A DNA stretch of 64,000 bases from Candidatus Tumulicola sp. (GTDB lineage: Bacteria; Vulcanimicrobiota; Vulcanimicrobiia; Eremiobacterales; Eremiobacteraceae), in contig DATNNM010000003.1 of assembly GCA_035601835.1 (NCBI GenBank), forward strand, positions 62,001-126,000, given 5' to 3'. Positions 24,317 to 40,843 of the stretch are shown here, piece by piece. Numbering within the stretch: the first letter of the stretch is position 1; the number at the start of each line of letters is the position of its first letter. The position numbers and the translations under genes are program-made. The notes beneath the pieces were generated by a model, which saw only the letters and a list, made by a program, of their open reading frames with translations, was not told where the DNA came from and ran no database searches.

Positions 24317-26938
24317 CTAGAACTTGACCGTGAAGTACAGGTTCTGGCGGTTCTGCGTCCAGTTGTACGACGGCAACACGTCATCTTTATACTCGTAGCG
24401 AGTGAAGAACGTGTTGATCGACGAGTTCGTGTTCGGGATGTTGTAGAGCACGCCGACGCTCAGCGCGGTCTTCTTCTCGCTGATGTTCTGCGACAGCGTG
24501 CTGGAGAGAGCGTCGCCGCCGTAGCGCTGATCGACGTAGGATGCGTTGGCGGTCAGCGCGGCCGTGATCGGCAGCGCGACTGAACCCGAGCCCACCAAGT
24601 GCCTGAGGTTCACGTGGTTCGGGTAGAAGAACACGACCGAACCGGTGCCGGTCAGCTCTGCGCTGCCAAGCGGATTGAACGCGGCAAGCCCGAGCAGCGG
24701 ATCCGCTGCATAGACGAACTTGGTGCTGTCCGGCCGCTGCAAGCGCTCGAACAGGGCGTCGAAGTTCACCGTCGCCTTGCGATCGAAGACCGGGAGGTCG
24801 ACCGTGAAGCCGCCCGTGAGTGCGTCGTACCGCTCCGCCACCGTCGACACGAACGCCGGGCCGAGGATGGCCGTGGTCAGCGAGTTCGGCCGAATCTCAC
24901 GAAGCGACTGGCCGCTGAGGCGCAGCTTCGCGCCGAGCGTGCCGACCTTTAGCGGGAAGTTCAGCTGCGCCGAGGCGCCGCGCGTGTTCGGCGCGTACGT
25001 GCTGTACCAGTACGGCCCCTGCGCCTTGAACTGGCTGAACAACGGAAACGCGAACGTGCCGTTCGGGAACGAGCCGTTGGCTGCCAGCGTGCCGGGATTG
25101 CCGCCGGCGATGGCAGCGGCGTCAACCTGACTGTTCAGGATGAAGTTGTTGCCGATGCCGAACGGGCCTGGCAGCTGCGGGTAGTTGTAGAAGGCGAACA
25201 GCGCCGGCGCCTGGCCGGACCACATGAACTGCGCGCCGTCGATCCAGAACGGCCCGACGCTCTGGTAGGTGAAGGTCTGGTCGCCGCCCAGCAACTTGAA
25301 GCGTATCCCGATCACGCCGGCGCTATCGCTGGCCGCCGGGATGCGCTGGAAGTCGCGCGTGTACTTGCTCTGCGATATCTCGCCGAACAGCACCGGTGTT
25401 TGGACCGGACCCCACGCGTAGGCCAGCGGCAGCGTGAAGTCCATGCCGAAGACGGTGTCGCTCACGATCTGGTTCGGGATCGAGGCCGTCTGGAAGAACA
25501 CCGTGTTGCCGGCGGCTGCCGAATCGCCGCGCAGGTCGAAGATGCGATTGAACGACAGCCCGATCGTTCCGGACGGGATGCCCGGAACGCGCCACACAGC
25601 GCGGCCGCCCACGTCATAGCGTTTCGGGAACGTATTGGCGGACACCGAGAAGCCCTGATACGTGATCGCGACGGTCGAGCCGGCGGGCAGCACCGAGCCG
25701 AAGACGACTTGGTTGGCCGTCTGCACGTATGTGAACGACGGCTCGCCTGCCTGGTTCGCAGCGGTGAAGAAGCAACCCGACACGCAGCCAGGACCCAAGA
25801 AGTACGAGATGAAGATCGTGCCCGGCTGCGCGTTCGACGTGAGACTCACCGACGCCAGCGGCGATGTCCCGGCGTTGAACGTGTCGGTCGTCGGCGCCGA
25901 GCCGTAGCTGTTGGAGGTCTGCTGGAAGTAATACGGGCCGAGGAAGATGTTCGACGTGATGCCCGTGTTCGGTCCGAAGGGTCCCGAGTTGACGCCGACC
26001 GGATCGAGGCGATAACCATAGACTTGCACATCGAGATAATTGAACAAGGTCCCCGTCACGTCCACGCCCTGCGGGAACGGCCGGTACGGGTCGGTGTATG
26101 CGATGTGGAAGTTGTCCGGCGGGCTGAAGGTGAGGCCGGTCAGCGAGCCTTTCAGGTTCTCGAGCTGGCCGATGCGGATATCCAGACCTTTGACGCCGTT
26201 GAAGTTCGGCACGCTGACGTCGATTGTCGGGTTGATGCCGATGCCGGTCTGCTGTTGGCGATAGCCGCCGTAGTTGTAATCGAGGATCTTGACGGGCATC
26301 GAAACGACGACGTTGGGCGTGACCGCATACGACGCGGTGAACTCCCACTGCGAGCGCGGCAGGATCACGTCGGGACCGAGTCTGCCGTAGTACGGATCGT
26401 TGCTCGCATCGGTCTCGATGAACGAGTCGGTGAAATTCTGGACCGCATCGGCGCGGGCGAACGCACCGGCCACGGTGATCGGGTTCACCGGCTGGTTGCG
26501 CTGTGAATACGCGGAATACAACGTGCCGTGAATCGCGAAGCGCTGCGCGAACTGCGTGGCCTTGTCGAGCGCGCTGATCTTGTCTTCGAGCGCGGTGACG
26601 CGGACGCCCATGCCGTCGAGCTCATCTTTGTACGCGTCCATGAGCTTGGAGAGTTTGTCGAGATCGGCTCTGCTTGCTCCGCCTTCTGCTTGGATCTTGG
26701 CGATGGCGCGAGCGATGATGACGGCCATCTCGTTGCGCGTCATCGATCGATTGCCCAAGAACTTCCCATTGGGATAGCCGGCAATGATGCCGTCGGCAGC
26801 AAGCGTTTGAATCGCGTCGGCCGCCCAGTGGCTGGCCGGCACGTCCGAAAACGGCGTTGCTGACGCGGGTAGCGGCCGCGCCGCCACAATTGCGACCAAT
26901 GCGATCGCGCATACCGCGAGGTAGGCGAATCTGTTCAA
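24317..26938 (-). CDS. Outer-membrane porin with S-layer-homology domain
   Basis: An 873-residue protein. The TTG start at 26938 is fixed by AGGAGG six bases upstream. The signal peptide is about 1-27 (cleavage after ASA). One SLH domain follows (about 29-75: FSDVPASHWAADAIQTLAADGIIAGYPNGKFLGNRSMTRNEMAVIIARAI), then a coiled coil (about 85-120) and a long beta-barrel ending in the aromatic-rich NRQNLYFTVKF, typical of an outer-membrane barrel signal. SLH porins tether the outer membrane to peptidoglycan or its secondary polymers in Cyanobacteria, Deinococcota and Negativicutes (OmpM type). The 279 bases upstream (26939-27217) hold no gene; hairpin-prone GC-rich leader sequence is present but matches no riboswitch I can name. 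Confidence 0.9.
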   Translation of the reverse strand: MNRFAYLAVCAIALVAIVAARPLPASATPFSDVPASHWAADAIQTLAADGIIAGYPNGKFLGNRSMTRNEMAVIIARAIAKIQAEGGASRADLDKLSKLMDAYKDELDGMGVRVTALEDKISALDKATQFAQRFAIHGTLYSAYSQRNQPVNPITVAGAFARADAVQNFTDSFIETDASNDPYYGRLGPDVILPRSQWEFTASYAVTPNVVVSMPVKILDYNYGGYRQQQTGIGINPTIDVSVPNFNGVKGLDIRIGQLENLKGSLTGLTFSPPDNFHIAYTDPYRPFPQGVDVTGTLFNYLDVQVYGYRLDPVGVNSGPFGPNTGITSNIFLGPYYFQQTSNSYGSAPTTDTFNAGTSPLASVSLTSNAQPGTIFISYFLGPGCVSGCFFTAANQAGEPSFTYVQTANQVVFGSVLPAGSTVAITYQGFSVSANTFPKRYDVGGRAVWRVPGIPSGTIGLSFNRIFDLRGDSAAAGNTVFFQTASIPNQIVSDTVFGMDFTLPLAYAWGPVQTPVLFGEISQSKYTRDFQRIPAASDSAGVIGIRFKLLGGDQTFTYQSVGPFWIDGAQFMWSGQAPALFAFYNYPQLPGPFGIGNNFILNSQVDAAAIAGGNPGTLAANGSFPNGTFAFPLFSQFKAQGPYWYSTYAPNTRGASAQLNFPLKVGTLGAKLRLSGQSLREIRPNSLTTAILGPAFVSTVAERYDALTGGFTVDLPVFDRKATVNFDALFERLQRPDSTKFVYAADPLLGLAAFNPLGSAELTGTGSVVFFYPNHVNLRHLVGSGSVALPITAALTANASYVDQRYGGDALSSTLSQNISEKKTALSVGVLYNIPNTNSSINTFFTRYEYKDDVLPSYNWTQNRQNLYFTVKF

Positions 26939-27217
26939 AGTGGTCCTCCTCAAGCGTAGAGGCACAAGTCTTCGGGGGCCGTCTCGAACGTCACGCATGC
27001 AGAATCTTCGTTCCCTGCTGTGCGATGAGCCGCCGACGGCACAAATACCCGTCGCTGGTTCGCCCTGTTTCGCCGGCTCAAAACCGACCATGAAGGCGGA
27101 CCAAACGCCGGTAACCTGCACGCCTCAGTTATGCGCCAAAAATGCCCTTTCCTCCCCTTGCTTGATATGCCCAACTGGCTTAGCGGTTCCCGATGGGTGG
27201 GACCGTTTTAAGACCCC

Positions 27218-27622: not shown

Positions 27623-28548
27623 TGCACGGACGGCAGCCTGCTCGGCTCCACCACGATCTCCGTCGTCAACGGTCCGTGCGCGTACGTGTCGTTCGCCGCG
27701 ACCGCTTGCACGACCGTCCGTCCTTTGATGGACGACAGTTCGCGCGCGACCCTGTCGACCGCGTCGGGCGTGATGGTCGGATTGGCGATCGAGTCGGGCA
27801 TGCCGTGCTGGATCGCGTTGCTTCGGATCGACGCCGCCAGCTGGTTCAGCGCGACGGTCTCGAGCTGGCGGTTCGCCGTGTTGACCAAATCGATGTGCGC
27901 GATGATCTCGCCTTTGCGATAGAGCAGACGATCCTCGTAGACGCGGAACGAGATCTTCATAGCGCCGTGCCTGAAGATGTTCTCGCCGGCGACCGGCACG
28001 ATGATCGCGGCGGTCGGCGCAAAACCCTTGACCGTTTTCGCAAGGGCGACCAGATTGGCGCGCGCCGCGGGCGTCAACGTTTTCGGATACGGGCGCACGT
28101 CGGGGATATTGCTGTAGTAGCCGGCGACGCCGAGGAAGAGCTGCTCGAGGCCGCGCTCGATGACGGGCTCGGGGTCGGTCGATGCGATGACCACCGGCGA
28201 GAAGATCGGCTCGCCGTTGCGGAACACGACCGGCTCTTGCAGCAGTTGATCGCGCTCCGCGCTGAGCGTTTTGATCTGATCGTTCAGCGTATTGATCGAG
28301 AACAGGGCTTGGCGAGCCTCCTGGTTGACCAGCGACACGAACACGATGACCGCCAGCGCGATGAACATGCCGAAGCCGACGGCGAAAATCGTGCTCGTGT
28401 AGCGTGGGCGCAGTCCGAACAGGGTCATGCGCCTGCGCCCGACGTTGTGGCCCACGCGGTCGCCCACGAATGCGATCGCCCCGGCGATGATCACGATCAC
28501 CAGCACCGTGATGCCGCTGCGCACGTCGATGGCCATCAGCGCGTACAT
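27619..28548 (-). CDS. DUF3084 membrane protein
   Basis: A 309-residue protein of a family best known from cyanobacteria. Two membrane helices (about 12-32 and 53-75) flank the family signature GHNVGRRRMTLFGLRPRYTS. A coiled coil (about 80-105) and a soluble domain follow. Its function is not established. It lies one base after the LptF/G-type permease and overlaps ruvX, so it is part of the LPS-export transcript and may act on the envelope. Confidence 0.85.
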   Translation of the reverse strand: MYALMAIDVRSGITVLVIVIIAGAIAFVGDRVGHNVGRRRMTLFGLRPRYTSTIFAVGFGMFIALAVIVFVSLVNQEARQALFSINTLNDQIKTLSAERDQLLQEPVVFRNGEPIFSPVVIASTDPEPVIERGLEQLFLGVAGYYSNIPDVRPYPKTLTPAARANLVALAKTVKGFAPTAAIIVPVAGENIFRHGAMKISFRVYEDRLLYRKGEIIAHIDLVNTANRQLETVALNQLAASIRSNAIQHGMPDSIANPTITPDAVDRVARELSSIKGRTVVQAVAANDTYAHGPLTTEIVVEPSRLPSVH

Positions 28549-28549
28549 C

Positions 28550-29631
28550 TCACACCTTGGCGGCCAGCTGCAGCAGCCAGACGCCGGTCGCGCAGAACAT
28601 GACGTTCGGCAGCCATGCCATGGTGAAGCTGAGTTCAGGGGTGGTGCGCCCGATCGCCAGACAAATCGTGGTCACGACGTAGAACGCGAACACGATCGCG
28701 ATGCTTATGCCGAAACCGGCGCCGGATGACGAGCGCTGGCGCCGGATGCCCAGCGGGATGGCGAGCAGCGTGAACACCAGACTCGCAAAAGGCCGAGCCA
28801 GCTTGCTGTCGTAGGTGACGAGTAAGAGCGCATAGCGCGAGATGTCGCCGTTCTTCTTGGCGTTGTTCATGAGCGGGCGTATCTGCGCCCGGGAGAGATC
28901 CTCGGGTTGCTTGCGCAATTCGAGCAGCTGGGTTGGATCGGCGCCGATGTCGACGTCCAGCAGCGGGTACTTGCTGACCAGGCAGCACGTCGGAGACATG
29001 GCGTAGGCGACGGCGTTTTGGAATTCCCACGAAGAGTTGCGGTAGCTCGCCCGCGGCGCGACCAACAGCGAGGTCAGCGCTTCTCCGCGATACAACTGCA
29101 CCGAGACCTGCACGAGCTGCTGCGTGGCCGGGTCGTAGCCCTCCGCGTACGTCACCTGAGAGTCTTGGTTCGGCAGCACCGTCCTGACTACTTCATTCTG
29201 CAAGATGTCCACGCCGCCGGACTGAATCTCGCGTTTGAGGATTTCGGTTGCGCGCTGCGTGGCTTCAGGCACGACGAATTCTTGGAACAAGAGCGCGACG
29301 ATCGACGCGGTCAGGCCGATCGCGACGACCGGCGCGGCGATGCGATAGAGGCTGACACCGCCGGCGCGCATGGCCGTGATCTCGGAGTCGGCGGACAGGC
29401 GGCTCATGGCGAGCAGCACGGACAGCAACATCGACATCGGGAACGTCAACACGAGCGTCTGCGGCAGGGTGTATACGAAGTATTTGGCGGCGGCGAAGAG
29501 GCTGGCGTGCTCTTCCGACACCAGCCGCGCGATGTTGAGCAGCTGGCCCGCTACGAAGATCAGCGTGAAGGCAGCGAGTCCGAAGAGAAAGGAACCGCCG
29601 AGCTCCGTGACCATGTAGCGGTCGAGGATCT

Positions 29632-29635
<4 letters not shown>
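28550..29635 (-). CDS. LptF/LptG-family LPS export permease
   Basis: A 361-residue inner-membrane permease of the LPS transport ABC system: N-terminal MKILDRYMVTELGGSFLFGLAAFTLIF with helices at about 12-32, 50-80 and 100-120, a periplasmic beta-jellyroll domain at about 130-265, and three C-terminal helices (about 275-355) with SKLARPFASLVFTLLAIPLGI. It extracts LPS from the inner membrane with LptB. Only one permease gene is seen here; LptF and LptG normally form a heterodimer, so either it works as a homodimer or the partner is elsewhere. It overlaps lptB by four bases. Confidence 0.92.
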
Positions 29636-30384
<749 letters not shown>

Positions 30385-30394
30385 GCTATTTCCG

Positions 30395-32245
30395 TCATTT
30401 ACCGATGCTCATGGATTGGGATCCATTGCTGCCGAACACGCGAATGGTCTGCAGGTCGAGGTCCGCTTCGGCGCGATTGCCGGAGAACGAGTTGCCTTTT
30501 TCGTCGGTCGCCTTCACGTGACCGGTGGCGGTCAGCAAGTGGCTCTTAGCATCGTACGCCATGCGGTCGGCGAGCAAAGCTGCGCCGTTGGTGCCGTAAG
30601 CTTCGACACCCCCTGCCAAACCGACATTGCGGGACGATGGATCCACGAACGCTGCCGGGGCGGTTAGTCGTGCCCGCACCGTTCTTCCTTTGAAGAAGAA
30701 CAGCTTGATGTTGGAAAGCGAGCCCTTGGAGCGGCTGGTGAGATAACCGACACGACTCGCCTGGAGCAGATATATCGTCTGGCCGTGCTGGGTGTCGCTG
30801 ATCTCGACTTGCTGGTCTCCGCGACTGCGTGCCACGACGTAATACGCCGGCTGCGGCGGTATCACGGTCGCCGTCGGGCTCGGCGGACGCGGCCCGTTGG
30901 CGGAGAGCCAACTGCACCCGGCGAGCAGCAGGCCGAGGACTACCGGAGTGGCGAGAGCGAGCGGAGCGAGTTGTGGCTGTGCGACCGGTGCTCGCGCTTG
31001 ATCCGCGCCGGCTTCTTGCTTTTCGGTCGCTGCTTCGGGCGCGAGCGCCGTCATGAGCCCCAGCATGGGCCACCACAGCAAGAACACGAAGGTCGAAACG
31101 ACGTCGACCGCGTTTTGCACGGCGGATGCGACGAAGGCCGCCGAGAGTCCATAGAAGAGCAGCACGCGCTCGCGATCGGTCGGTGGTATGCGCTTGCCGG
31201 TGGCGCGCGCAGCTCGGATCGCGGCGACGACCGTCCACACGAACGCGGCGAACCCTAAGATGCCGTTTTCCACCAGGACGTTGAGCGGCAGGTCGTGCGC
31301 GTGGACCTCATCGACCGCGGCGTCTGGTTCTTTGAGCATCGGGTAGACGCGACTAAACGCGATCGGTCCGACGCCGGTGAGCGCGAAGCGTTCCACCATG
31401 CGCAGCGCTCCGCGCCAGACCGCGATGCGCGAAGTGTTCTCACTCGGGTCGTGCTGCACGTCGCGAAACGTCGTCGTGCCGAGGATCAGCGCAAGGGCAG
31501 CCGCGCCGATATACAGCAGCATGGCGCGCCGCCCGAAACGCACGATGAGCAGCGGCAAGCCCACGATCGAGCCCAGCCACGCCGCGCGAGAAACGCATAG
31601 CGCGAGCCCGATGATGCCGACGACCGCAGCGGAGAGGCCCAAGCGCCGCAGCAGCGGCGTCGCGCCCAGCTGCGCGAGCCCGAGCGGCACAAGGAAGAGC
31701 AGATATCCGCCGAACTCGTTGGGTTGCAAGAACGTGCCGGCGGCGCGGCCGTGCTGGTAGGCGAACGCTGCGGGAGGGTGGCGCGTGAGCGTCAGCGCGA
31801 TCGCGAAAACCGTCGCGATGATTCCCGAAGCGAAATACAAGGCGAGCCAGCGGCGACGCATGTGCTCGTCGGACATCGTCCACCAGAAGATCACGAGCGC
31901 GATCAGATCGCCGAACTCGCAGACGATCTCGAACGAGCTCGTGCGCAAAGAAACGCCGGCCACGCCGGCGAGCATGGCGGTCGCTACCATCGCGGCGAGG
32001 GGCAGAGCAAGCGGCGGCCGCGCGAGCGCGCGCCAACCGCGCTCCGCGATGAGCCCGCAAACAGAGGTGAGGGCGGCGATCGTCACGATGATCGCCAGAG
32101 CCACGGCGTAGGCGCGACCGCCGATCGCCACCCCGCGCGGCAGCACGTCGGCCAGCAGCACGAGCATCGGCATGACCGGCAGCAGGATGCCGCAGGTCAA
32201 TGGCAGCGCGGCTTGCGCGGCTCTGGCGAGCGACGTCGATTGCAT
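30395..32245 (-). CDS. O-antigen-ligase-like protein fused to an LptC domain
   Basis: A 616-residue single open frame. Residues about 1-415 are a polytopic Wzy/WaaL-type O-antigen ligase or polymerase (about 11 helices; GTFLQPNEFGGYLLFLVPL, ENTSRIAVWRGALRMV, and HAHDLPLNVLVENGILG with the conserved ligase His). A further hydrophobic segment at about 430-447 (LATPVVLGLLLAGCSWL) contains a lipobox-like LAGC at Cys444. Residues about 448-616 are an LptC/LptA-like beta-jellyroll (VEAYGTNGAALLADRMAYDAKSHLLTATGHVKATDEKG). No stop and no good internal ATG with ribosome site separates the parts. The topology fits: ligase C-terminus in the cytoplasm, then one helix into the periplasm, as in LptC. It starts in a TGATG overlap and precedes lptB. 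Confidence 0.85.
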   Translation of the reverse strand: MQSTSLARAAQAALPLTCGILLPVMPMLVLLADVLPRGVAIGGRAYAVALAIIVTIAALTSVCGLIAERGWRALARPPLALPLAAMVATAMLAGVAGVSLRTSSFEIVCEFGDLIALVIFWWTMSDEHMRRRWLALYFASGIIATVFAIALTLTRHPPAAFAYQHGRAAGTFLQPNEFGGYLLFLVPLGLAQLGATPLLRRLGLSAAVVGIIGLALCVSRAAWLGSIVGLPLLIVRFGRRAMLLYIGAAALALILGTTTFRDVQHDPSENTSRIAVWRGALRMVERFALTGVGPIAFSRVYPMLKEPDAAVDEVHAHDLPLNVLVENGILGFAAFVWTVVAAIRAARATGKRIPPTDRERVLLFYGLSAAFVASAVQNAVDVVSTFVFLLWWPMLGLMTALAPEAATEKQEAGADQARAPVAQPQLAPLALATPVVLGLLLAGCSWLSANGPRPPSPTATVIPPQPAYYVVARSRGDQQVEISDTQHGQTIYLLQASRVGYLTSRSKGSLSNIKLFFFKGRTVRARLTAPAAFVDPSSRNVGLAGGVEAYGTNGAALLADRMAYDAKSHLLTATGHVKATDEKGNSFSGNRAEADLDLQTIRVFGSNGSQSMSIGK

Positions 32246-33438
32246 CAGGCGGTGTTCTGCGACGCCTGCGCCAGCACGGCCTTTGCGACTGCGGCTGCGC
32301 CGCCGGGCTGCCCCATGCGCTCTTGACCCAGGCGGGCCATCGCGGCTTTGCGGGCCGGGTCGTCCAGCAGCGCCACGACGCTCGCCGCAAATTCGATCTC
32401 GTCGCCGCCGACGACGAGCAGGGCGTCGCCAAGCAGACGCTGCTGGCGCATCCGATACCAGCCGATTCTCCCGGGGCGTTCGCCGCTTTCGGCCGATGCG
32501 ACGACCGGGCGGCCGAGGCCGGCCGCCTGCTCGTTTCCGGTGCCGGCTTGTCCGAGCACGATTTGCGAGGCGCGCAACAAATCGCCGAACGCTCCCGAGA
32601 CGGCGAGCACTTCAAGATTCTCCGCCTCTCCTCTGGCGATGACGCCGTCGCGCGCACCGGTCGGCGCCATGCTGATCCCCGCGGCCGCGCTGGCTTCGAG
32701 CACTGCTTCAATCTCCACGCTCGGCGCGATGGACATGAACGCCTGAACCGCAGCCCCGCGCGTTTTCAACAACCGCGCGATGGCCAGCAGGCGCCGCGTC
32801 GCGGTGCCCGCGTTCGCCGCCGCGTCAGCCCGGCTGCCCGGCAGCACGCCCAAGCGAATCGCATCGTCCCTGACCGGGAGCGGCGTCCGGCCGGGCTCAA
32901 GCCCGTCCATCATGAGGTTGCCCGCATACTCTGCGCGCACGCCGCGGCTGAGCAGCGCTTGCGCCGTGGCCGCGTCGCGCGCGAAGACGATGTTGGCTCG
33001 GCGCGCGATGCCGATCTCGAGCGGCGAATGCGGCGCCACGTGTTGGGACTTGGCCGTCGCCACGAACACGGTCGGACGCCGCGCGAAGAAAAGACACGCT
33101 GCCAGACAATAGACATCGCCGACCGCGACCACCACGCTGCGCTTGCGCTGGCGGCCCAGGAATGCATACTGACGCAGCGTCAGGCCGATGAGTCCGGCGC
33201 GAACGTCGCGGATCAGGTTTGCGAAATTCCAATAAGCAATGAGCCCCCCGCTCGGCATCGCGGCGAGCGGTCCGACGTTTGTGGTGTGCCAGGCCTGATT
33301 CTGGTTCGTATTGCCGACCAGCGGCATGTGTTCGATTTTCGCATCCGGCGCGCTGCGCGCGATCTCACGCGCGAGGTACCCCGCGATGGCAGCCTCGCCA
33401 AAACCATTGCTCACGAGCAGGATGTCGGGTGCGCTCAT
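32245..33438 (-). CDS. LpxB-related glycosyltransferase (lipid-A-disaccharide-synthase-related)
   Basis: A 397-residue protein resembling the 'lipid-A-disaccharide synthase-related' group found in cyanobacteria and deinococci: N-terminal VSNGFGEAAIAGYLAREI, VAVGDVYCL, HSPLEIGIARRANIVFARD, GVLPGSRADAAANAG and a nucleotide-sugar site IVLGQAGTGNEQAAGLGRPVV near the end. A true lpxB lies two genes upstream, so this one probably adds a different sugar or acts on another lipid. It overlaps its upstream gene by four bases and the ligase-LptC gene by one. Confidence 0.82.
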   Translation of the reverse strand: MSAPDILLVSNGFGEAAIAGYLAREIARSAPDAKIEHMPLVGNTNQNQAWHTTNVGPLAAMPSGGLIAYWNFANLIRDVRAGLIGLTLRQYAFLGRQRKRSVVVAVGDVYCLAACLFFARRPTVFVATAKSQHVAPHSPLEIGIARRANIVFARDAATAQALLSRGVRAEYAGNLMMDGLEPGRTPLPVRDDAIRLGVLPGSRADAAANAGTATRRLLAIARLLKTRGAAVQAFMSIAPSVEIEAVLEASAAAGISMAPTGARDGVIARGEAENLEVLAVSGAFGDLLRASQIVLGQAGTGNEQAAGLGRPVVASAESGERPGRIGWYRMRQQRLLGDALLVVGGDEIEFAASVVALLDDPARKAAMARLGQERMGQPGGAAAVAKAVLAQASQNTA

Positions 33439-34166
33439 CGCGCGGCGGCTTCCAGCAACGGCACCAACCGGTATGATGCCAGTCGCAAGCGGCCGGCTCC
33501 GTCCGGCGCGAGTTCCAAGCGCCCGGCGAAGCGCGCATAAGGACCGGCGTGCGCGATCGGCACGCCGTTCACGACCTCCGGAAGCTCGAGCGTTTCGTGG
33601 CTGTGACCGCCGATGATCGCGGACAATGAGGGATAGCGCGAAGCTATCTCCCGATCGGCAGCCAGTCCCAGATGCGAGAGCAAGATAGTGGCGTCGGCCG
33701 GCTCCGGCAGCGCGAGCATCTCGTCGAGCGCCGCGTGCGTGCTCAGAAATCGCCAGCCGAATATCGCTTCCCAGCCGCTGCCCGTGCGGTACTGCGGCGC
33801 GAGAAGCGCCACGAGACGTATGTCGGTATCACCGGCGCTGAGGCGCAGCGACCGGACGAACGGGGGCGTGCGCCCCCAAAGATCGAGCAGGTTCGAGCAG
33901 ATCATAGGCATGGGCATCGCCCGCGCGCGCGCCGAGAAGCAGGCGTGCAGATAATGGAACTCCCGGTTGCCGACGGCTTGGGCGCTATACCTCGCGGCAG
34001 CGAACTCTTGCATGACCGGCTCGTTCCGGCGGTAGATGGTCGACGATCCGCGCAGGCTGTCGCCGCAATCGACGCGCAGCGCGTCCGGTTCCACGATCTT
34101 GGCCAGCCGCTCGCCGAAACCGCGCCGGTCGTGCACGTCGGACGTGTGATAGATGAGGACGCTCAC
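33435..34166 (-). CDS. Calcineurin-like metallophosphoesterase in the lipid A cluster
   Basis: A 243-residue phosphoesterase with dimetal motifs HTSDVHDRRGF, VDCGDSL, GNREFHY, LLSHLGLAAD and IIGGHSHE, the layout of the 5'-nucleotidase/UshA N-terminal domain without its C-terminal domain. No signal peptide is seen, so it is cytoplasmic. The GTG start at 34166 overlaps the lpxB stop (GTGA) and its end overlaps the LpxB-related gene, so it is coupled into the lipid A operon. The UDP-2,3-diacylglucosamine hydrolysis step (LpxH/LpxI/LpxG) has no other candidate in the window; LpxH and LpxG are themselves calcineurin-like. Assignment to that step is inference. Confidence 0.78.
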   Translation of the reverse strand: MSVLIYHTSDVHDRRGFGERLAKIVEPDALRVDCGDSLRGSSTIYRRNEPVMQEFAAARYSAQAVGNREFHYLHACFSARARAMPMPMICSNLLDLWGRTPPFVRSLRLSAGDTDIRLVALLAPQYRTGSGWEAIFGWRFLSTHAALDEMLALPEPADATILLSHLGLAADREIASRYPSLSAIIGGHSHETLELPEVVNGVPIAHAGPYARFAGRLELAPDGAGRLRLASYRLVPLLEAAAR

Positions 34167-35305
34167 GCAGGCATTTGCTCGAGCATGAATCGGGCGATTC
34201 GTCGCAGCGCGTCGGGCGGACCGAGCGCGGCGCGCAGTTCGGCGTAGACGGCCGCTTGTTCGGCTCGCGGACGCGGGTCGTCCAAGTAGCGCTCGGTCAG
34301 TTCGTGGAGGCGTTCGGGCGTGAAATCGCCTTGCAGCAGCTCGGGCACCACCGGTCGCCCCAACACGAGGTTCGGCAGCGTGATCGGTCCGTGCACGAAT
34401 TGCGGCACGCGACGCTGTGCGATGCGATATTGCGCCGCCGAGATCTTATAGAACGCGATTTGTGGGATCGCTCGCAGTGCGACCTCGAGCACCGCGGTGC
34501 CCGACGCGACCCACGCCAGATGTGCGCTATCGCGCGAGGTCTCGATCGCATCGCCGCGCACGATGGTTGCAGCGGCCGGGCCGTCCGCGCGCGCCCAGAG
34601 CGTTTCGATCTGTTTCGCGCGCGCCCTCGACGAGGCGGCTATCGTGAACGTCGCGCCGCGCTCTGAGGCGAGCTGCTTGGCCGTGCGAGCGATGACGGGC
34701 AGGAGCAGGTCGACCTCTTCTTTGCGGCTGCCTGGGTAGGCGATGATGTTCGTGCCGCCGGACGGCGGCTGCAGGCTGCGCGGGGCGATGGCCGACACGA
34801 GAGGGTGCCCGAAATACTCCACCGGCAAGGAAAGGCTGCGGTAGAAATCGCGCTGCTGCGGGAACGTCGCGACCGGTGTGGCCGCCGCCGCCACGTCGCG
34901 CGCCTGTCGTTCGTTGAACAGCCACGCGCCCGGCGGGAAGTAGTAGATGATCCTGCCGCGATATTGGCCGCGGCGCAAACGCATGATGAGGCGCAGATTG
35001 AAAGCGCCGAAGTCGATCGGCACGAGCAACCTCGGCGGCTGCTTCGCGAAGCGCCGGGCCATCCACAGCATGGTGAGATAGAGCACGGGGATCTTGCCGA
35101 GCGCGGAGATCGGCCCGATGCTGGCCCATTCGCTTGAATCAGCGAGCAGCGCTGCGCCCGCATCGAGCAGCCGCTGCGCGCCGATCGCCTCGCAGCGCAA
35201 ATCCGGTCGCAACGCGCGCATCTCGCGCAGCAGCAGGGCGCCTAGCAGATCGCCCGACGCCTCGCCGGCCAGTAGCACGAGGTCGGCCGGAGCGAGGGCC
35301 GTCAC
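34163..35305 (-). CDS. lpxB: Lipid-A-disaccharide synthase LpxB
   Basis: A 380-residue GT19 enzyme that joins UDP-2,3-diacylglucosamine and lipid X. Signatures are LLAGEASGDLLGALLLREM (N-terminus), IDFGAFNLRLIMRLRRGQYRGRIIYYFPPGAWLFNERQARD, YFGHPLVSAI, YPGSRKEEVDLLLPVI and WVASGTAVLEVALRAIPQIAFYKISA. The GTG start at 35305 comes one base after the lpxA stop. The length is normal. It lies in the order lpxC-fabZ-lpxA-lpxB, as in many diderms, with an extra small gene between lpxC and fabZ. Confidence 0.96.
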   Translation of the reverse strand: MTALAPADLVLLAGEASGDLLGALLLREMRALRPDLRCEAIGAQRLLDAGAALLADSSEWASIGPISALGKIPVLYLTMLWMARRFAKQPPRLLVPIDFGAFNLRLIMRLRRGQYRGRIIYYFPPGAWLFNERQARDVAAAATPVATFPQQRDFYRSLSLPVEYFGHPLVSAIAPRSLQPPSGGTNIIAYPGSRKEEVDLLLPVIARTAKQLASERGATFTIAASSRARAKQIETLWARADGPAAATIVRGDAIETSRDSAHLAWVASGTAVLEVALRAIPQIAFYKISAAQYRIAQRRVPQFVHGPITLPNLVLGRPVVPELLQGDFTPERLHELTERYLDDPRPRAEQAAVYAELRAALGPPDALRRIARFMLEQMPA

Positions 35306-35306
35306 T

Positions 35307-36179
35307 TTAGGCCGCGCCCGGGTCTTCCTCCGTGGCGTGTTCGCGCGCGCGGCCGCCGCGCCGGCCGGCGTTGCTCGTGATGCCGCGTTCCGAAGCTGTT
35401 TCGAAAAACGTGAGCAGCTCTTTGCCTTCGGACGTGACCATGGATGCGCGCAGCCGTTCGATCACGGTGGACTGGCGATCGTCCCCCATATACAGCAGCC
35501 GATACGCTTCCTTGAGCTCGGAGATCGCCTCGGGCGCGATGGCGTTTCGTTTGAGTCCGACGCGGTTGAGCCCGCGCACCGACGCCGGATTGCCCTCGAT
35601 GAGGAAAAAAGGCGGCACATCTTTCAAGATCTTGCTGCGGCCGCCGAGAAACGACAGGCGACCGATGCGCACGAATTGGTGGACGCCGACCATGCCGCCG
35701 AGATTGGCGCCGTCGCCCACGCTGACGTGCCCTGCGAGCTGCGAGAGATTCGACATCACGACGTTGTTGCCGATGCGGCAGTCGTGCGCGATGTGCGCGT
35801 AGGCAAGCAAGTGGTTGTCGGAGCCGATGACGGTCTCGGATTCGGGGTCAGTGCCGCGATTGATGGTGACGTATTCTCGGAGGATATTACGATCGCCGAT
35901 ACGGACGTACGATACTTCGCCGCGATGCTTCTTGTCCTGCGACGCGCCGCCGATCACCGAAAAAGGATACACCGTATTGTCGCACCCGATCCTGGTGTGG
36001 CCCAGCACGACGACGTTGGCGAGCAGGCGCGTGCCATCACCGATCGTGACGTTCTCGCCGATCAAACAGTACGGGCCGATCTCCGTGCCTCGGCCTAGCT
36101 TCGCACTTGGATGCACCACCGCGGTCGGGTGCACGTTCAATGAGTAGACGTTGACCGAAGGCACTCGCGCGGTCCCCAT
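35307..36179 (-). CDS. lpxA: UDP-N-acetylglucosamine acyltransferase LpxA
   Basis: A 290-residue trimeric left-handed beta-helix acyltransferase that starts lipid A synthesis. Hexapeptide repeats run from about residue 15 to 190. The catalytic His is His132 in AYAHIAHDC (equivalent to E. coli His125), and the substrate loop NRGT is at about 107-110. The C-terminal helical domain (about 200-265) is followed by a charged extension of about 25 residues not usual in the family. ATG 36179 overlaps the fabZ stop (TGATG); a GTG one codon earlier is also possible. Confidence 0.96.
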   Translation of the reverse strand: MGTARVPSVNVYSLNVHPTAVVHPSAKLGRGTEIGPYCLIGENVTIGDGTRLLANVVVLGHTRIGCDNTVYPFSVIGGASQDKKHRGEVSYVRIGDRNILREYVTINRGTDPESETVIGSDNHLLAYAHIAHDCRIGNNVVMSNLSQLAGHVSVGDGANLGGMVGVHQFVRIGRLSFLGGRSKILKDVPPFFLIEGNPASVRGLNRVGLKRNAIAPEAISELKEAYRLLYMGDDRQSTVIERLRASMVTSEGKELLTFFETASERGITSNAGRRGGRAREHATEEDPGAA

Positions 36180-36652
36180 CACATGTGCAGCACGGACGCG
36201 TCGAGCTTGAAGAGCCGCGCATCCGTGACGACCGAAAAGGTCAGCTCACCACTGCATACGAGTTGGTCGCCTACGCGCGTTTCGGCGGCGAGGCGTCCAT
36301 AATTCATCTTCGTCCACAGCAGGTTCACCTCCATGCGGAGCGTGTCGCCGGGAATGACGGGCCGACGGAACTTGAATTTGTCGACGCCGACGAGATACGG
36401 CACCGTCGTCGCCGAACTGTTCGGCTCCATAATGACGGTGCCCCCGAGCTGCGCCATCGCCTCGATGATGATCACGCCCGGCATGACCGGGTTGTTCGGG
36501 AAGTGCCCGGTGAAGAACGGTTCGTTGAAGGTGACGTTCTTGAAACCGACCGCGCGCTTGAGGTGTTCGAGTTCGGTTATGCGGTCGATGAGGAGCATCG
36601 GATAGCGATGCGGTAGGATCTCCATAATGGAGCGGATATCGACATATGCCAC
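36179..36652 (-). CDS. fabZ: 3-hydroxyacyl-ACP dehydratase FabZ
   Basis: A 157-residue hot-dog-fold dehydratase of type II fatty acid synthesis, which draws on the same hydroxyacyl-ACP pool as LpxA and LpxD. The active site is His50 (FFTGHFPNNPVMPGV) and Glu64 (IIIEAMAQLGG); N-terminal ILPHRYPMLLIDRI is typical. The GTG start at 36652 is supported by TGGAGG eight bases upstream. That site sits in a small self-complementary GCCTCTGGAGGC, right after the palindrome at 36670-36688, so initiation could be structure-sensitive. Confidence 0.96.
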   Translation of the reverse strand: MAYVDIRSIMEILPHRYPMLLIDRITELEHLKRAVGFKNVTFNEPFFTGHFPNNPVMPGVIIIEAMAQLGGTVIMEPNSSATTVPYLVGVDKFKFRRPVIPGDTLRMEVNLLWTKMNYGRLAAETRVGDQLVCSGELTFSVVTDARLFKLDASVLHM

Positions 36653-36669
36653 GTGCGTAGCCTCCAGAG

Positions 36670-36786
36670 GCCGGCGCTATGCGCCGGCATGCCTGTCCAA
36701 TTCGCCGTGAGGTGACCGCGTCCCGTCATTGGAATGTAGCGTTCCGAGCGAAGACTTTAGCGTAGCCACGGACCTTTAGGTCCGTG
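36670..36786. repeat. Palindrome cluster upstream of fabZ
   Basis: Three elements: a perfect GCCGGCGC/GCGCCGGC hairpin with loop TAT (36670-36688); a GTAG...CTTTAG stretch without clear arms (36736-36759); and a full CACGGACC-type element with GTAGCC head and perfect arms (36762-36786), matching the copy at 1044-1068. They fill the 170-base gap between fabZ and the compositionally odd small gene. Confidence 0.8.
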
Positions 36787-36822
36787 CCAATCCTCCGCCC
36801 TTGCGTCACGGGGTCGCCGCGC

Positions 36823-37083
36823 CTATTTGGACGTATCGTCGAGTCTGCGAAGGCGACTTTCAGCCCTGGTGACGGCCTCTTGGAAAGCGACTAGCTCAAA
36901 TGTCCATATCGAGCCGTCCTTCTTGGGCCAGATCTCTAGGTCGAAGACAGCCTCGCCCCGCTCTTCACTAACTATTGCGACAATTTCGTCGTTGAAGTAT
37001 ACTTCGGCAATCAGTTTTTCGAACAACGGATCCGATGCGACGACAATGCGAAAACCAGGAACTCGTTCAACCTGCAAGGTCAA
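36823..37083 (-). CDS. Small hypothetical protein in a low-GC insert between lpxC and fabZ
   Basis: An 86-residue protein from TTG 37083 (start uncertain). It is compact and mixed-charge, with DPLFEKLIAEVYFNDEIVAIVSEERGEAVFDLEIWPKKDG and the C-terminal helix WTFELVAFQEAVTRAESRLRRLDD, a pattern seen in small stand-alone proteins of unknown function. I cannot name a family. Base composition is far from its neighbours: 36961-37020 counts 23 G+C in 60, while flanking lpx genes are about two-thirds GC. Position and composition point to horizontal acquisition. Confidence 0.6.
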   Translation of the reverse strand: MTLQVERVPGFRIVVASDPLFEKLIAEVYFNDEIVAIVSEERGEAVFDLEIWPKKDGSIWTFELVAFQEAVTRAESRLRRLDDTSK

Positions 37084-37104
37084 ATGCTCGCATGAAGTCG
37101 TCGT

Positions 37105-37938
37105 TTACAATGCGGCGGCGAGGGGGGCGCGCAGCGATTGCGCGGCTGCGACGTGCAGCGCGTGACCTGATTTCAGCGCGATCACCTCGCCGCGCAAACG
37201 CGCGCCGATCAGTCCGAAATCTCCGATGAGATCGAGGGCCTTGTGACGCACGATCTCATCCGGGAAACGCAGCGGTCCCGCGTAGCCGTCACGCTCGATG
37301 ACGACTGCGTTGTCCAGCGCGCCCCCGAGCGCCAGGCCTTGTGCGTGCAGCGCTTCGACTTCGGCGCGGAATCCGAACGTCCGATTCGGCGCGATCTCGC
37401 GCAGGAAATAGTCGGGCGTCAGTGGCGGCGTCTGCAAGAACTGTATGCCGACCGGCTCCGGAAACGCGACGAAGAAATTGATGGTGAGGTCGCGCGCGGG
37501 TACGATGACCAGCAGCTTATCGCCATCGCGATGCCAGGACGGCGAGCGCACGATCATCTCGCGACGCGGAACTTTCTGCTCGAGCGAGCCCCCGTCGGCG
37601 AGCGCTTGCGCGAAGGGCAGCGCGCTGCCGTCGAGTATGGGCACTTCGGGCCCAGCCACGGCGATGATCGCGTTGTCGATCTCCATGCCGACCAGCGCGG
37701 CAAGCACGTGTTCGACGGTATGCAGTTCAGCGGTCGCAGAGGCGACCGTCGTGCAGCGCGTGGTCGAGCGGACCACCTCCGGCGTCGCTGCGATTCGCGA
37801 GCCGTCGGCGAGGACAAAAGAAATGCCGGCGTTGGCCGGCGCGGGTGATATGGTGACGCGGGATTGAGACCCGGTGTGCAGGCCCACGCCCGACACCGTG
37901 AACTCGTTTGCGAGCGTATGCTGGAGGTGTGCGTCCAT
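37105..37938 (-). CDS. lpxC: UDP-3-O-acyl-N-acetylglucosamine deacetylase LpxC
   Basis: A 277-residue zinc deacetylase, the committed step of lipid A synthesis. Motifs: SGVGLHTGSQSRVTISPA (about 16-33), LHTVEHVLAALVGMEIDNA with zinc ligand His77, ILDGSALPFAQAL, and RHKALDLIGDFGLIG with the remaining zinc His and Asp. Length is somewhat short of the E. coli enzyme (305) because the C-terminal tail is trimmed. It starts at ATG 37938, 11 bases after lpxD. It is the first lpx gene followed by foreign-looking DNA rather than directly by fabZ. Confidence 0.96.
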   Translation of the reverse strand: MDAHLQHTLANEFTVSGVGLHTGSQSRVTISPAPANAGISFVLADGSRIAATPEVVRSTTRCTTVASATAELHTVEHVLAALVGMEIDNAIIAVAGPEVPILDGSALPFAQALADGGSLEQKVPRREMIVRSPSWHRDGDKLLVIVPARDLTINFFVAFPEPVGIQFLQTPPLTPDYFLREIAPNRTFGFRAEVEALHAQGLALGGALDNAVVIERDGYAGPLRFPDEIVRHKALDLIGDFGLIGARLRGEVIALKSGHALHVAAAQSLRAPLAAAL

Positions 37939-37949
37939 CCCGTTCGGCT

Positions 37950-38987
37950 CTAGCGTTGTTTGCGCAACTCGTCCACGAGTGCTGACAGCGCCGCGACCTG
38001 TTCGGCGAGCTTAGGCAGTTTTCGAAGCATGACCTTCTGCTGCATCTCTTCACGATACGCGACTGCCGGCGTGCCCCAGTACGTGCCTGCGTTCTTGATC
38101 GAACCGACGATGCCTGATTGGCCTCCGAAAATCGCGCCGTCGCAGATCTCGATGTGCCCGTTCACGCCGACCTGTCCGGCCATGGTCACGACTGCGCCGA
38201 CCTTCGTCGATCCCGCGATGCCGACTTGCGCGCACAGCGTGCCGTCTTCGCCGATCTGAACATTGTGTCCGATCTGCACGAGATTGTCGATTTTGGTCCC
38301 GCTGCCCACCACGGTCGATCCAGTCACCGCCCGATCGATGGTCGAGCAAGCGCCGATCTCCACGCGGTCGCCGATGACCACGTTGCCGATCTGCGGGATC
38401 TTGATCTGTTCTTTGCCCACGCGCACGAAGCCGAAACCGTCGCTGCCGATCACGCAATTCGAGTGCAGGATGCAGTCGTCACCGATGACGCACGCATCGA
38501 GCACGCACGCGCGCGGATGGAGCAGGGTGCGCGCGCCGATGCGCGCGTTCACACCGACATAGGCCCCGGGAAGCAGGATCGCGCCGTCGCCCAGCGTCGC
38601 GCCGCTGCGAACGATCGCGCCCGCGCCGATCCAGACTTGCGCGCCGCGCTGCACGTCTGCCTCGATGATCGCCGAGGGATGCGTGAAATCAGCGTGCGGC
38701 AGCGGCGGCGCAAAGGATGCCAGGATGGAGGCGAGCGCCGCGCGCACATCCGCTGCGACGATCAACGTCTTGCCGCGCGCGTCGGAGACGGTCACCGCTG
38801 CGGGCACGATGACGGCCGACGCTTTTGAAGCAAGCGCTCTGTCGATCCACTTCGCGTCGACCGCGAAGGTCAGCGTGCCTGCGACGGCTTCATCGACGGC
38901 GCTGACGCGTTCGACCGGCAGCCCCGCGTCGCCCGACACGGTCGCGCCGGCAAGCGCCGCAAGTTCGCCGACGGTGCGCGCTATCAA
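37950..38987 (-). CDS. lpxD: UDP-3-O-(3-hydroxyacyl)glucosamine N-acyltransferase LpxD
   Basis: A 345-residue enzyme. The N-terminal uridine-binding domain (about 1-100) is followed by a left-handed beta-helix (about 105-305) with SNCVIGSDGFGFV, IPQIGNVVIGDRVEIGACSTIDRAV and the catalytic His in DNLVQIGHNVQIGE, and a short C-terminal helix (LRKLPKLAEQVAALSALVDELRKQ). It adds the second acyl chain of lipid A precursor. The start is TTG at 38987 with no strong ribosome site. It follows three OmpH/Skp-like genes, as skp-lpxD does in proteobacteria. Confidence 0.96.
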   Translation of the reverse strand: MIARTVGELAALAGATVSGDAGLPVERVSAVDEAVAGTLTFAVDAKWIDRALASKASAVIVPAAVTVSDARGKTLIVAADVRAALASILASFAPPLPHADFTHPSAIIEADVQRGAQVWIGAGAIVRSGATLGDGAILLPGAYVGVNARIGARTLLHPRACVLDACVIGDDCILHSNCVIGSDGFGFVRVGKEQIKIPQIGNVVIGDRVEIGACSTIDRAVTGSTVVGSGTKIDNLVQIGHNVQIGEDGTLCAQVGIAGSTKVGAVVTMAGQVGVNGHIEICDGAIFGGQSGIVGSIKNAGTYWGTPAVAYREEMQQKVMLRKLPKLAEQVAALSALVDELRKQR

Positions 38988-38998
38988 GGCGAGCCGGT

Positions 38999-39439
38999 CT
39001 ATTTACCCGGCGACGGAGATACCGGCGTGATCTTCAGCGCCTTTTCGACGTCGTCCGTGATGTCGTCGCCACCGTAGGCCACGCCCTGGCGCGTCACCAC
39101 CAGCTCGTAGTGACGCTGTGCGGCGATGTCCTTGACGACGCCGCGCACTTCATCGGTCACTTCGTTCTGCCAGCGATGCTCTTGTTGCTGGAACTGCAGT
39201 ATTTGCCGCTGTCGCTCCGACGGGCTCATCTTCGCCGTGATGATGCTATTGTAGTTCGCCTGCAACTGGTTGGCGTAGTTGATGAATTTCGGCCAATGCT
39301 GCTCGATGCTCGTGACGTTGACGACCGCGACTTTCGAGTGCGCATGCGCGCAGCCGCCTAGCATGACCGCGACGAGCAGCACCAGCAGCATGGACGCGAG
39401 CTTCGCTCGCAGCGCGCTATGAAAGAGAGTATTATTCAT
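38999..39439 (-). CDS. OmpH/Skp-like lipoprotein (third of three)
   Basis: A 146-residue lipoprotein with a type II signal ending LGGC (about residue 30). The mature part is a short version of the OmpH/Skp pattern: AVVNVTSIEQHWPKFINYANQLQ, a coiled-coil arm, then a hydrophobic strand (HYELVVTRQGVAYGGDDITDDV) matching the end of the OmpH domain. A periplasmic chaperone-like or envelope-associated role is likely. The ATG lies next to the stop of the 467-residue paralogue, so both are probably translated together. Confidence 0.82.
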   Translation of the reverse strand: MNNTLFHSALRAKLASMLLVLLVAVMLGGCAHAHSKVAVVNVTSIEQHWPKFINYANQLQANYNSIITAKMSPSERQRQILQFQQQEHRWQNEVTDEVRGVVKDIAAQRHYELVVTRQGVAYGGDDITDDVEKALKITPVSPSPGK

Positions 39440-40843
39440 TCATCCCCCGGATTGCGTTGGTGAAGGCGCGGGCGACGGCAGCGCCGCGACCGCTTGGGTC
39501 ACTTGGTCCGTCAGGTCAACGGCCGAGCCCGCTCCGCGCACGGATGTGAGGACGACACCCACGCCTTGCTTCTGAGCGATGACGGCGATCTGCTGCCGCA
39601 CCTGCTCGACGATCTTGTCGAGCAGATCACGGCGCTGCTGCGCGAGCCGGTTCACCTCGTCAGCGAGCGCGGCGTTGTCTTGGAACTGCATGTGCGCGAT
39701 AGCGCTGTACTTCGCGACGAGCGATTTGCGCGTGTCCGCGTACGACGCCATCGACTTGTTGAATTCGGCGGTATACTTGGCTTGCTGTTCCGAGTGGATG
39801 CGGTCGATGTCCGCCTTCACTTTCGGATTCTTCGCCAGCGTCTCGTTCGCGCTCTTGAGCTGCTCCTGGAACTTCGAGCCGATGCCGGTCACCTGCGTCT
39901 TGAGCTGGTCGTTCATCTGCTGTTGACGGCCTTGAAGTTTTGCCTGGGTCGCAGCGGCGGTGGCGTTGCGCTCAGAGTCGAAGCTCTTGGCCGCATCGCG
40001 CTGCAGACCGTCCTCGTACTTCTTGAGCTCGGTGTTGTCTTGGGATTTCATCCGGTTGATCAGCGCATCCTCACGCGTCTGGATGTTCTGCAGCTGGCCG
40101 GCGTACTGCGCGCGCTCTTCGGGCGTGAGGTTGCTCGAGTCGAGTTTGAGTTTGAGGTTCAGCTTCTGGTCTTGATCCTCGCGCGACAATTTGAGCTGGT
40201 ATGCCGTCTCCGCCGTCTCGAGCTTGTTGCGCTTGTCTTGGATCTTGGCGAACACGTCGGCGTGGAGCCGCTGCGACACTTCCGCCAGGTGCTGATTGTC
40301 TTGCTTGTACAGCGATTTCTGATATTCGACGAAGGCCTTGCCCGCCTCGGTTTGGATCTGTTTCACTTGTTCGCCGAATTGCTGCTGGACGTTGCCCGAG
40401 ATCTGCGTCGAGCTCGTGCCGGCGAGCGCGCGGTTTTGCACCGCGGCGATCGCTTGGGCTTCTTGCTGTTCGTAGAAGCTGCGCCGCCGTGCGACCTCTT
40501 CTTGGAATTGCGCCTGTGCCGCGGCGAGCTCGCGCTGCATCGCGGCCTCGGCGGCGCGCTGCTCTGGCGTCTGCGCCTGCGGCGCTTGTTGCTGCTGCGC
40601 ATTGAGCGCCACGATCTGCGTCTGCAGCGAATCGATCTCGTTATGCAGCGGATGCGCGGTGACGATCTTGCTCATGTCGACGTAGCCGGCCTGACCGCCG
40701 CCCGCCGGCATCGTGAACAGCGACGCTGAGGGATAGCTCAGACCGCCTGAACTGCTCTGCTTGTTGCACCCGGTCAGGCACGCGGCGATAACCAGCGCGA
40801 CAAAACAGAAGCTTCGCAAGCTATTTGAGCGCTGCGACGACAT
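39440..40843 (-). CDS. Long coiled-coil OmpH/Skp-like lipoprotein (second of three)
   Basis: A 467-residue lipoprotein: signal with LTGC near residue 25, GYVDMSKIVTAHPLHNEIDSL at the start of the OmpH-like core, then a very long Gln/Ala/Lys-rich coiled coil (about 85-400), and a closing strand region (QKQGVGVVLTSVRGAGSAVDLTDQV). Skp is normally ~160 residues, so the coiled-coil arm is greatly extended and could span much of the periplasm. It overlaps the upstream paralogue by 23 bases; a later TTG start is possible but poorly supported. Confidence 0.82.
   Translation of the reverse strand: MSSQRSNSLRSFCFVALVIAACLTGCNKQSSSGGLSYPSASLFTMPAGGGQAGYVDMSKIVTAHPLHNEIDSLQTQIVALNAQQQQAPQAQTPEQRAAEAAMQRELAAAQAQFQEEVARRRSFYEQQEAQAIAAVQNRALAGTSSTQISGNVQQQFGEQVKQIQTEAGKAFVEYQKSLYKQDNQHLAEVSQRLHADVFAKIQDKRNKLETAETAYQLKLSREDQDQKLNLKLKLDSSNLTPEERAQYAGQLQNIQTREDALINRMKSQDNTELKKYEDGLQRDAAKSFDSERNATAAATQAKLQGRQQQMNDQLKTQVTGIGSKFQEQLKSANETLAKNPKVKADIDRIHSEQQAKYTAEFNKSMASYADTRKSLVAKYSAIAHMQFQDNAALADEVNRLAQQRRDLLDKIVEQVRQQIAVIAQKQGVGVVLTSVRGAGSAVDLTDQVTQAVAALPSPAPSPTQSGG

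Follow-up and report, generated by a model that had tools for sequence, protein, structure and literature searches.

The question raised by this locus is whether a single open frame that joins an O-antigen ligase to LptC encodes one lasting protein or a precursor from which two are released. The frame lies in the window, the whole stretch of 64,000 nucleotides analysed here, and the preliminary description had placed it directly upstream of lptB as a ligase and LptC in one reading frame, an assignment confirmed by the ORF itself and by its Pfam and NCBIfam domains. The genome to which the window belongs is denoted G000, and the relatives are denoted G001, G002, G004, G006, G009, G011, G012, G013 and G045. 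The features concerned are as follows, with coordinates referring to the window.

34163–38987, minus strand: upstream LPS genes lpxB, lpxA, fabZ, lpxC and lpxD (NCBIfam matches).
32245–33438, minus strand: gene related to lipid-A-disaccharide synthase (TIGR03492, E = 8e-73), with a stop that overlaps the start of the fusion.
30395–32245, minus strand: ligase–lptC fusion ORF of 616 amino acids in an uninterrupted frame; the same frame is found in G004, G011, G006 and G013.
31040–32245, minus strand: ligase part, residues 1–402, with about 12 predicted membrane helices and a loop of the Wzy_C catalytic type.
31238–31630, minus strand: Wzy_C (PF04932) match, residues 206–336 (Pfam E = 7.6e-17).
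30971–31039, minus strand: linker, residues 403–425, predicted to be cytoplasmic, without ATG, GTG, TTG or CTG.
30917–30970, minus strand: hydrophobic segment, residues 426–443, a former lipoprotein signal peptide that is now a predicted 13th membrane segment (hydropathy).
30914–30925, minus strand: lipobox LAGC, residues 441–444, with a predicted LspA cut before Cys444 (consensus match and PS51257-type core).
30398–30916, minus strand: predicted mature LptC lipoprotein, residues 444–616 (TIGR04409; AF2 model and Foldseek matches to LptC).
29632–30384, minus strand: lptB, the ATPase of the LPS exporter (TIGR04406, E = 2.3e-100), directly downstream of the fusion.
28550–29635, minus strand: lptF/lptG-type permease (PF03739, E = 2.8e-75).

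The fusion ORF starts with an ATG that overlaps the TGA stop of the upstream gene (TGATG). A phosphoesterase-like gene is also found among the genes ahead of it, together with the lpx genes and the disaccharide-synthase-related gene, and lptB and lptF/G follow directly downstream both in the window and in the relatives. Since lpx genes stand ahead and lptB and lptF/G behind, the ligase and LptC are both part of an operon for LPS synthesis and export. In thin sections of a cultured member of Candidatus Eremiobacterota, the phylum to which G000 most likely belongs, the outer membrane is seen to be covered with LPS (PMC9758169). The LPS cluster ends with a gene (24317–27121, minus strand) for a large protein in which an S-layer homology domain is accompanied by what may be a β-barrel, an arrangement of the SLH-porin type. 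Two adjacent OmpH/Skp-like proteins (38999–39439 and 39440–40843, minus strand) carry lipoprotein-type signals, LGGC and LTGC, respectively; Skp is normally soluble.

Both halves of the fusion belong to known families. The match to PF04932 scores 61.9 bits against a gathering score of 31.7, and in the second half PF06835 (residues 485–604, E = 2.9e-7) scores 30.7 bits against a gathering score of 21 and TIGR04409 (residues 434–604, E = 2.1e-10) scores 40.4 bits against a cut-off of 38. A chance open frame was considered and is ruled out by the LptC homology in the same frame. When modelled alone, the LptC part folds into an LptC-type β-jellyroll (AF2 pLDDT 81, pTM 0.76), for which the best PDB match in Foldseek is the LptC chain of LptBFGC (6mit chain C, E = 1.3e-5), further matches being the LptC chains 4b54, 6mjp_C and 3my2, E. 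coli LptC included. As an LptC, this half would be expected to bind LPS and LptA and to join LptB2(FG). A second LptC-family protein is encoded elsewhere in G000, directly behind lnt (contig C11, about 28400–28900; L003:1447–2037, minus strand); it matches PF06835 (4.5e-5) and falls just below the cut-off of TIGR04409 (2.3e-8), and it has a plain N-terminal helix without a lipobox, so that in G000 a helix-anchored LptC-like protein accompanies the lipoprotein-type one. In addition, a 581-residue protein of G000 (contig C1, L002:871–2616, plus strand) contains repeated LptA/LptC-like domains (PF06835 in three stretches and PF03968 in two) and is possibly a pre-assembled multi-domain LptA bridge.

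In the ligase half, residues R167, S219, R220, H265, R273, H315, H317 and E326 are invariant in all 44 aligned relatives, which is what an active Wzy_C enzyme would show; we take R220, R273, H315 and H317 to be the conserved Arg and His residues of the periplasmic loops of WaaL. Its family and operon suggest that the enzyme may attach O-antigen to lipid A-core rather than polymerise it or act on protein. At least one further Wzy_C match is present in every genome of the family, and this second protein could be a polymerase or another ligase. A sequence search of the PDB gave no match, and the closest NCBIfam ligase models (IctB and PEP O-ligase) score below their own cut-offs. About 12 helices are indicated by hydropathy and by a full-length AF2 model of low confidence (pLDDT 45.7), which served only for rough helix placement; a 12-helix topology is that of O-antigen ligases (PMC9938171).

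The ligase is present in all 14 family genomes, and in five of them, G000, G004, G011, G013 and G006 (genera g1, g5 and g7), it continues into LptC in one open frame; in G013 the contig ends within LptC and the remainder stands at the start of another contig. A search for the same architecture in related genomes, as had been proposed beforehand, thus found it in four, which belong to two other genera and are 55–65% identical to the protein of the window. In the other nine family genomes the ligase gene and lptC are adjacent but separate; they stand in different frames except in G001, where the frame is common to both and a single TAA intervenes. When 117 genomes of the class were searched, of which 110 gave a match, separate genes were the rule wherever the junction was read, and because of this rule they are most likely the ancestral state, from which the fusion is derived. 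The preliminary description had held that relatives with two genes and a stop would speak against the fusion; most relatives are indeed of this kind, but the fusion is not undone by them, being common to relatives of 55–65% identity. Its alternative, in which the stop that separated a ligase from a former lipoprotein LptC has disappeared, is instead supported as history, with two genes and a lipoprotein LptC in nine of the 14 family genomes and, wherever read, in the rest of the class, and the comparison supports an origin of the fusion by loss of the boundary, stop and start, between the ligase gene and lptC. G000 and genus g5 form a supported clade (support 95/97 and 100); the grouping of G006 with them was tested with a p-AU of 0.203, and a single origin was not rejected. 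Known parts have thus been joined in a real, lineage-specific gene fusion, the likely maturation of which is unusual.

The sole further in-frame case seen was G045, from another family. It was rejected as an instance of the same fusion, since its lptC, although in frame without a stop, keeps an ATG and a strong ribosome-binding site and the draft may hold an indel; this locus (L063) reflects either a separate fusion that is still under way or an indel introduced by assembly.

The lipobox-like LAGC with Cys444, which had been pointed out at the junction, is present at residues 441–444 and fits the lipobox consensus [LV][ASTVI][GAS]C (PMC8048626). The Cys444 codon occupies 30916–30914 and encodes the sole cysteine beyond residue 217. 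A lipobox-type cysteine is found in every LptC examined, fused (6/6, the five family proteins and G045) or unfused (23/23), and in each fused protein it is the only cysteine of the LptC part, the lipoboxes of the five family proteins being LAGC, ISGC, LAGC, LSAC and LSGC. In the 23 unfused LptCs it ends an N-terminal lipoprotein-type signal segment, to which segment 426–443 of the fusion is equivalent. The stretch from a WWPM motif to this cysteine varies from 42 to 134 residues among the fused proteins and aligns poorly, and the cysteine is nonetheless kept; that the cleavage site has been kept while the linker around it drifted is our main reason for thinking that the site still works, and it points to cleavage by LspA. 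The longest stretch, of 134 residues in G013 (L070), contains an insert. Chance lipobox-like patterns do occur in hydrophobic segments, one extra match being found in the G006 frame, and the retention could partly reflect the shared ancestry of the fused genomes. The segment is also not an N-terminal signal peptide with a positive n-region, but lies internally behind about 12 helices, and in the window the linker that precedes it is net acidic.

We favour a reading in which the polyprotein is translated as one chain that LspA probably cleaves in front of Cys444, so that the ligase is freed and LptC is held by a lipid anchor. The matching topology that had been claimed agrees with hydropathy and with the rough model, which indicate about 12 ligase helices followed by a membrane segment; this topology, the lipidation and the cut are inferred. 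The ligase would insert as 12 helices with its two ends cytoplasmic, since an even helix number leaves the C-terminus there and the next helix places LptC in the periplasm; the old LptC signal peptide would become this 13th helix, and Cys444 would come to lie at the outer face of the inner membrane, where the established lipoprotein pathway of Lgt and LspA acts (PMC8048626). Lgt would then lipidate Cys444 and LspA would cut between Gly443 and Cys444, so that the products would arise 1:1, the ligase with the signal peptide as a C-terminal tail and the lipid-anchored LptC joining LptB2(FG). Lgt is encoded in 14 of the 14 family genomes and LspA in 13, both of them in G000, where Lnt is also found, and the lipoprotein-type N-termini of two other genes in the window (LGGC and LTGC) count in the same direction. 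It is because the topology places Cys444 where Lgt and LspA act, and because Lgt, LspA and Lnt are encoded, that the LspA-cut polyprotein is favoured over a lasting tether and over internal initiation. In the openly searchable literature we found no documented case in which LspA processes an internal signal or a signal peptide that comes after 12 helices, and no direct precedent for a ligase–LptC fusion.

Alternatively, the chain may stay uncut, with the 13th helix anchoring LptC to the ligase and O-antigen ligation physically tied to export, as the preliminary description had envisaged. This we consider doubtful, and equally doubtful that the whole chain would form a dedicated supercomplex that passes newly ligated LPS directly on to the export bridge, the cysteine being either lipidated without cleavage or left unused. 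The continuous frame in five genomes, with an internal start missing in three, is consistent with a tether, as is the topology, in which an even number of ligase helices is followed by a periplasmic LptC. Moreover, in well studied exporters the helix of LptC is not cleaved and alternately enters and leaves the LptFG interface (PMC10094684), and Brucella WadA is a natural fused O-antigen ligase, with a glycosyltransferase domain. However, there is no obvious reason for a whole chain to keep the lipobox cysteine in every fused copy, the hydrophobic segment has the length of a signal peptide, notably in G011, and LptC was already of the lipoprotein type in all of the unfused relatives read. That the lipobox has been kept across so variable a linker gives no support to a mature state in which ligation and export are lastingly linked, and the fusion by itself is no evidence of a standing ligase–exporter complex.

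A second alternative, somewhat less probable still, is that the frame is open but that LptC is made mostly from an internal start, as in the unfused relatives. Unfused lptC has a start codon 14–29 codons before the cysteine in all 21 genes tested, often with a strong ribosome-binding site, whereas a start is present in two of the five fused genes (Fisher p = 0.004, with kinship ignored). No ATG, GTG, TTG or CTG occurs at codons −35 to −12 before the cysteine in G000 and G004, or at −34 to −12 in G011, and in G000 codons 399–438 contain none of the four. Candidate starts are found in G013 (GTG at −26 with a fair ribosome site) and in G006 (TTG/ATG), and since these two keep possible starts the case for start loss is strongest for G000, G004 and G011. 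Internal initiation is also favoured by the in-frame lptC of G045 with its retained ATG and ribosome site, and in G000 by ATG394 and ATG398, which come after a GGTGG stretch. However, these two codons encode a conserved helix end (WWPM..LM) that is also present in unfused relatives, and the nearest ATG would give a 46-residue signal peptide with a net-acidic n-region. Internal initiation yielding free LptC only, named earlier as evidence that would overturn the fusion, is therefore unlikely in G000. In G002 and G012 (L083 and L082), lptC seems to begin with a CTG that is preceded by a very strong ribosome site (GGCGGAGG) and stands where G009 has a GTG; a usable ATG, GTG or TTG was not found in the expected range in these two, and a gene finder would misplace such a start.

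Finally, although the fused relatives include draft metagenome assemblies, an artefact of sequencing or assembly, by which a stop was lost or the frame displaced, is refuted, to the point of being negligible, by the same open frame in four other genomes, the five separate assemblies having differing linkers at 55–65% identity and lacking the ancestral start in three cases.

If the LspA-cut polyprotein is the correct reading, signal peptidase II would be able to mature a polyprotein whose signal peptide stands behind an enzyme of many helices, and the range of substrates known for the lipoprotein pathway would become wider. The fusion also couples, naturally and 1:1, the synthesis of an enzyme that finishes LPS to that of a component of the export machinery. 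A ligase-type gene and lptC are paired across the class, in itself a lead that both act together.

Among known systems, Brucella WadA also has an O-antigen ligase domain naturally joined to another domain in one chain, but there the fusion is N-terminal, to a cytoplasmic glycosyltransferase, with no tie to Lpt proteins (PMC9938171). The present protein resembles the Wzy_C/WaaL O-antigen ligases (PF04932) in its profile match, its roughly 12 helices and its conserved Arg and His residues near a large periplasmic loop, and differs from them in carrying a C-terminal LptC. That LptC in turn resembles known LptC (TIGR04409, PF06835) in sequence profile, fold and position beside lptB and lptF/G; however, in E. 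coli LptC stands alone and its helix is not cleaved, whereas here a lipoprotein-type LptC forms the C-terminal part of a ligase ORF. For the proposed maturation, the comparison is with the cytochrome b–c1 precursor FbcH of Bradyrhizobium, a polytopic protein that is cut at an internal signal sequence. The two share a polytopic protein, an internal signal sequence, a periplasmic partner and a cut after insertion, but FbcH is cut by ordinary signal peptidase, whereas the lipobox site of the fusion leads us to expect Lgt and LspA.
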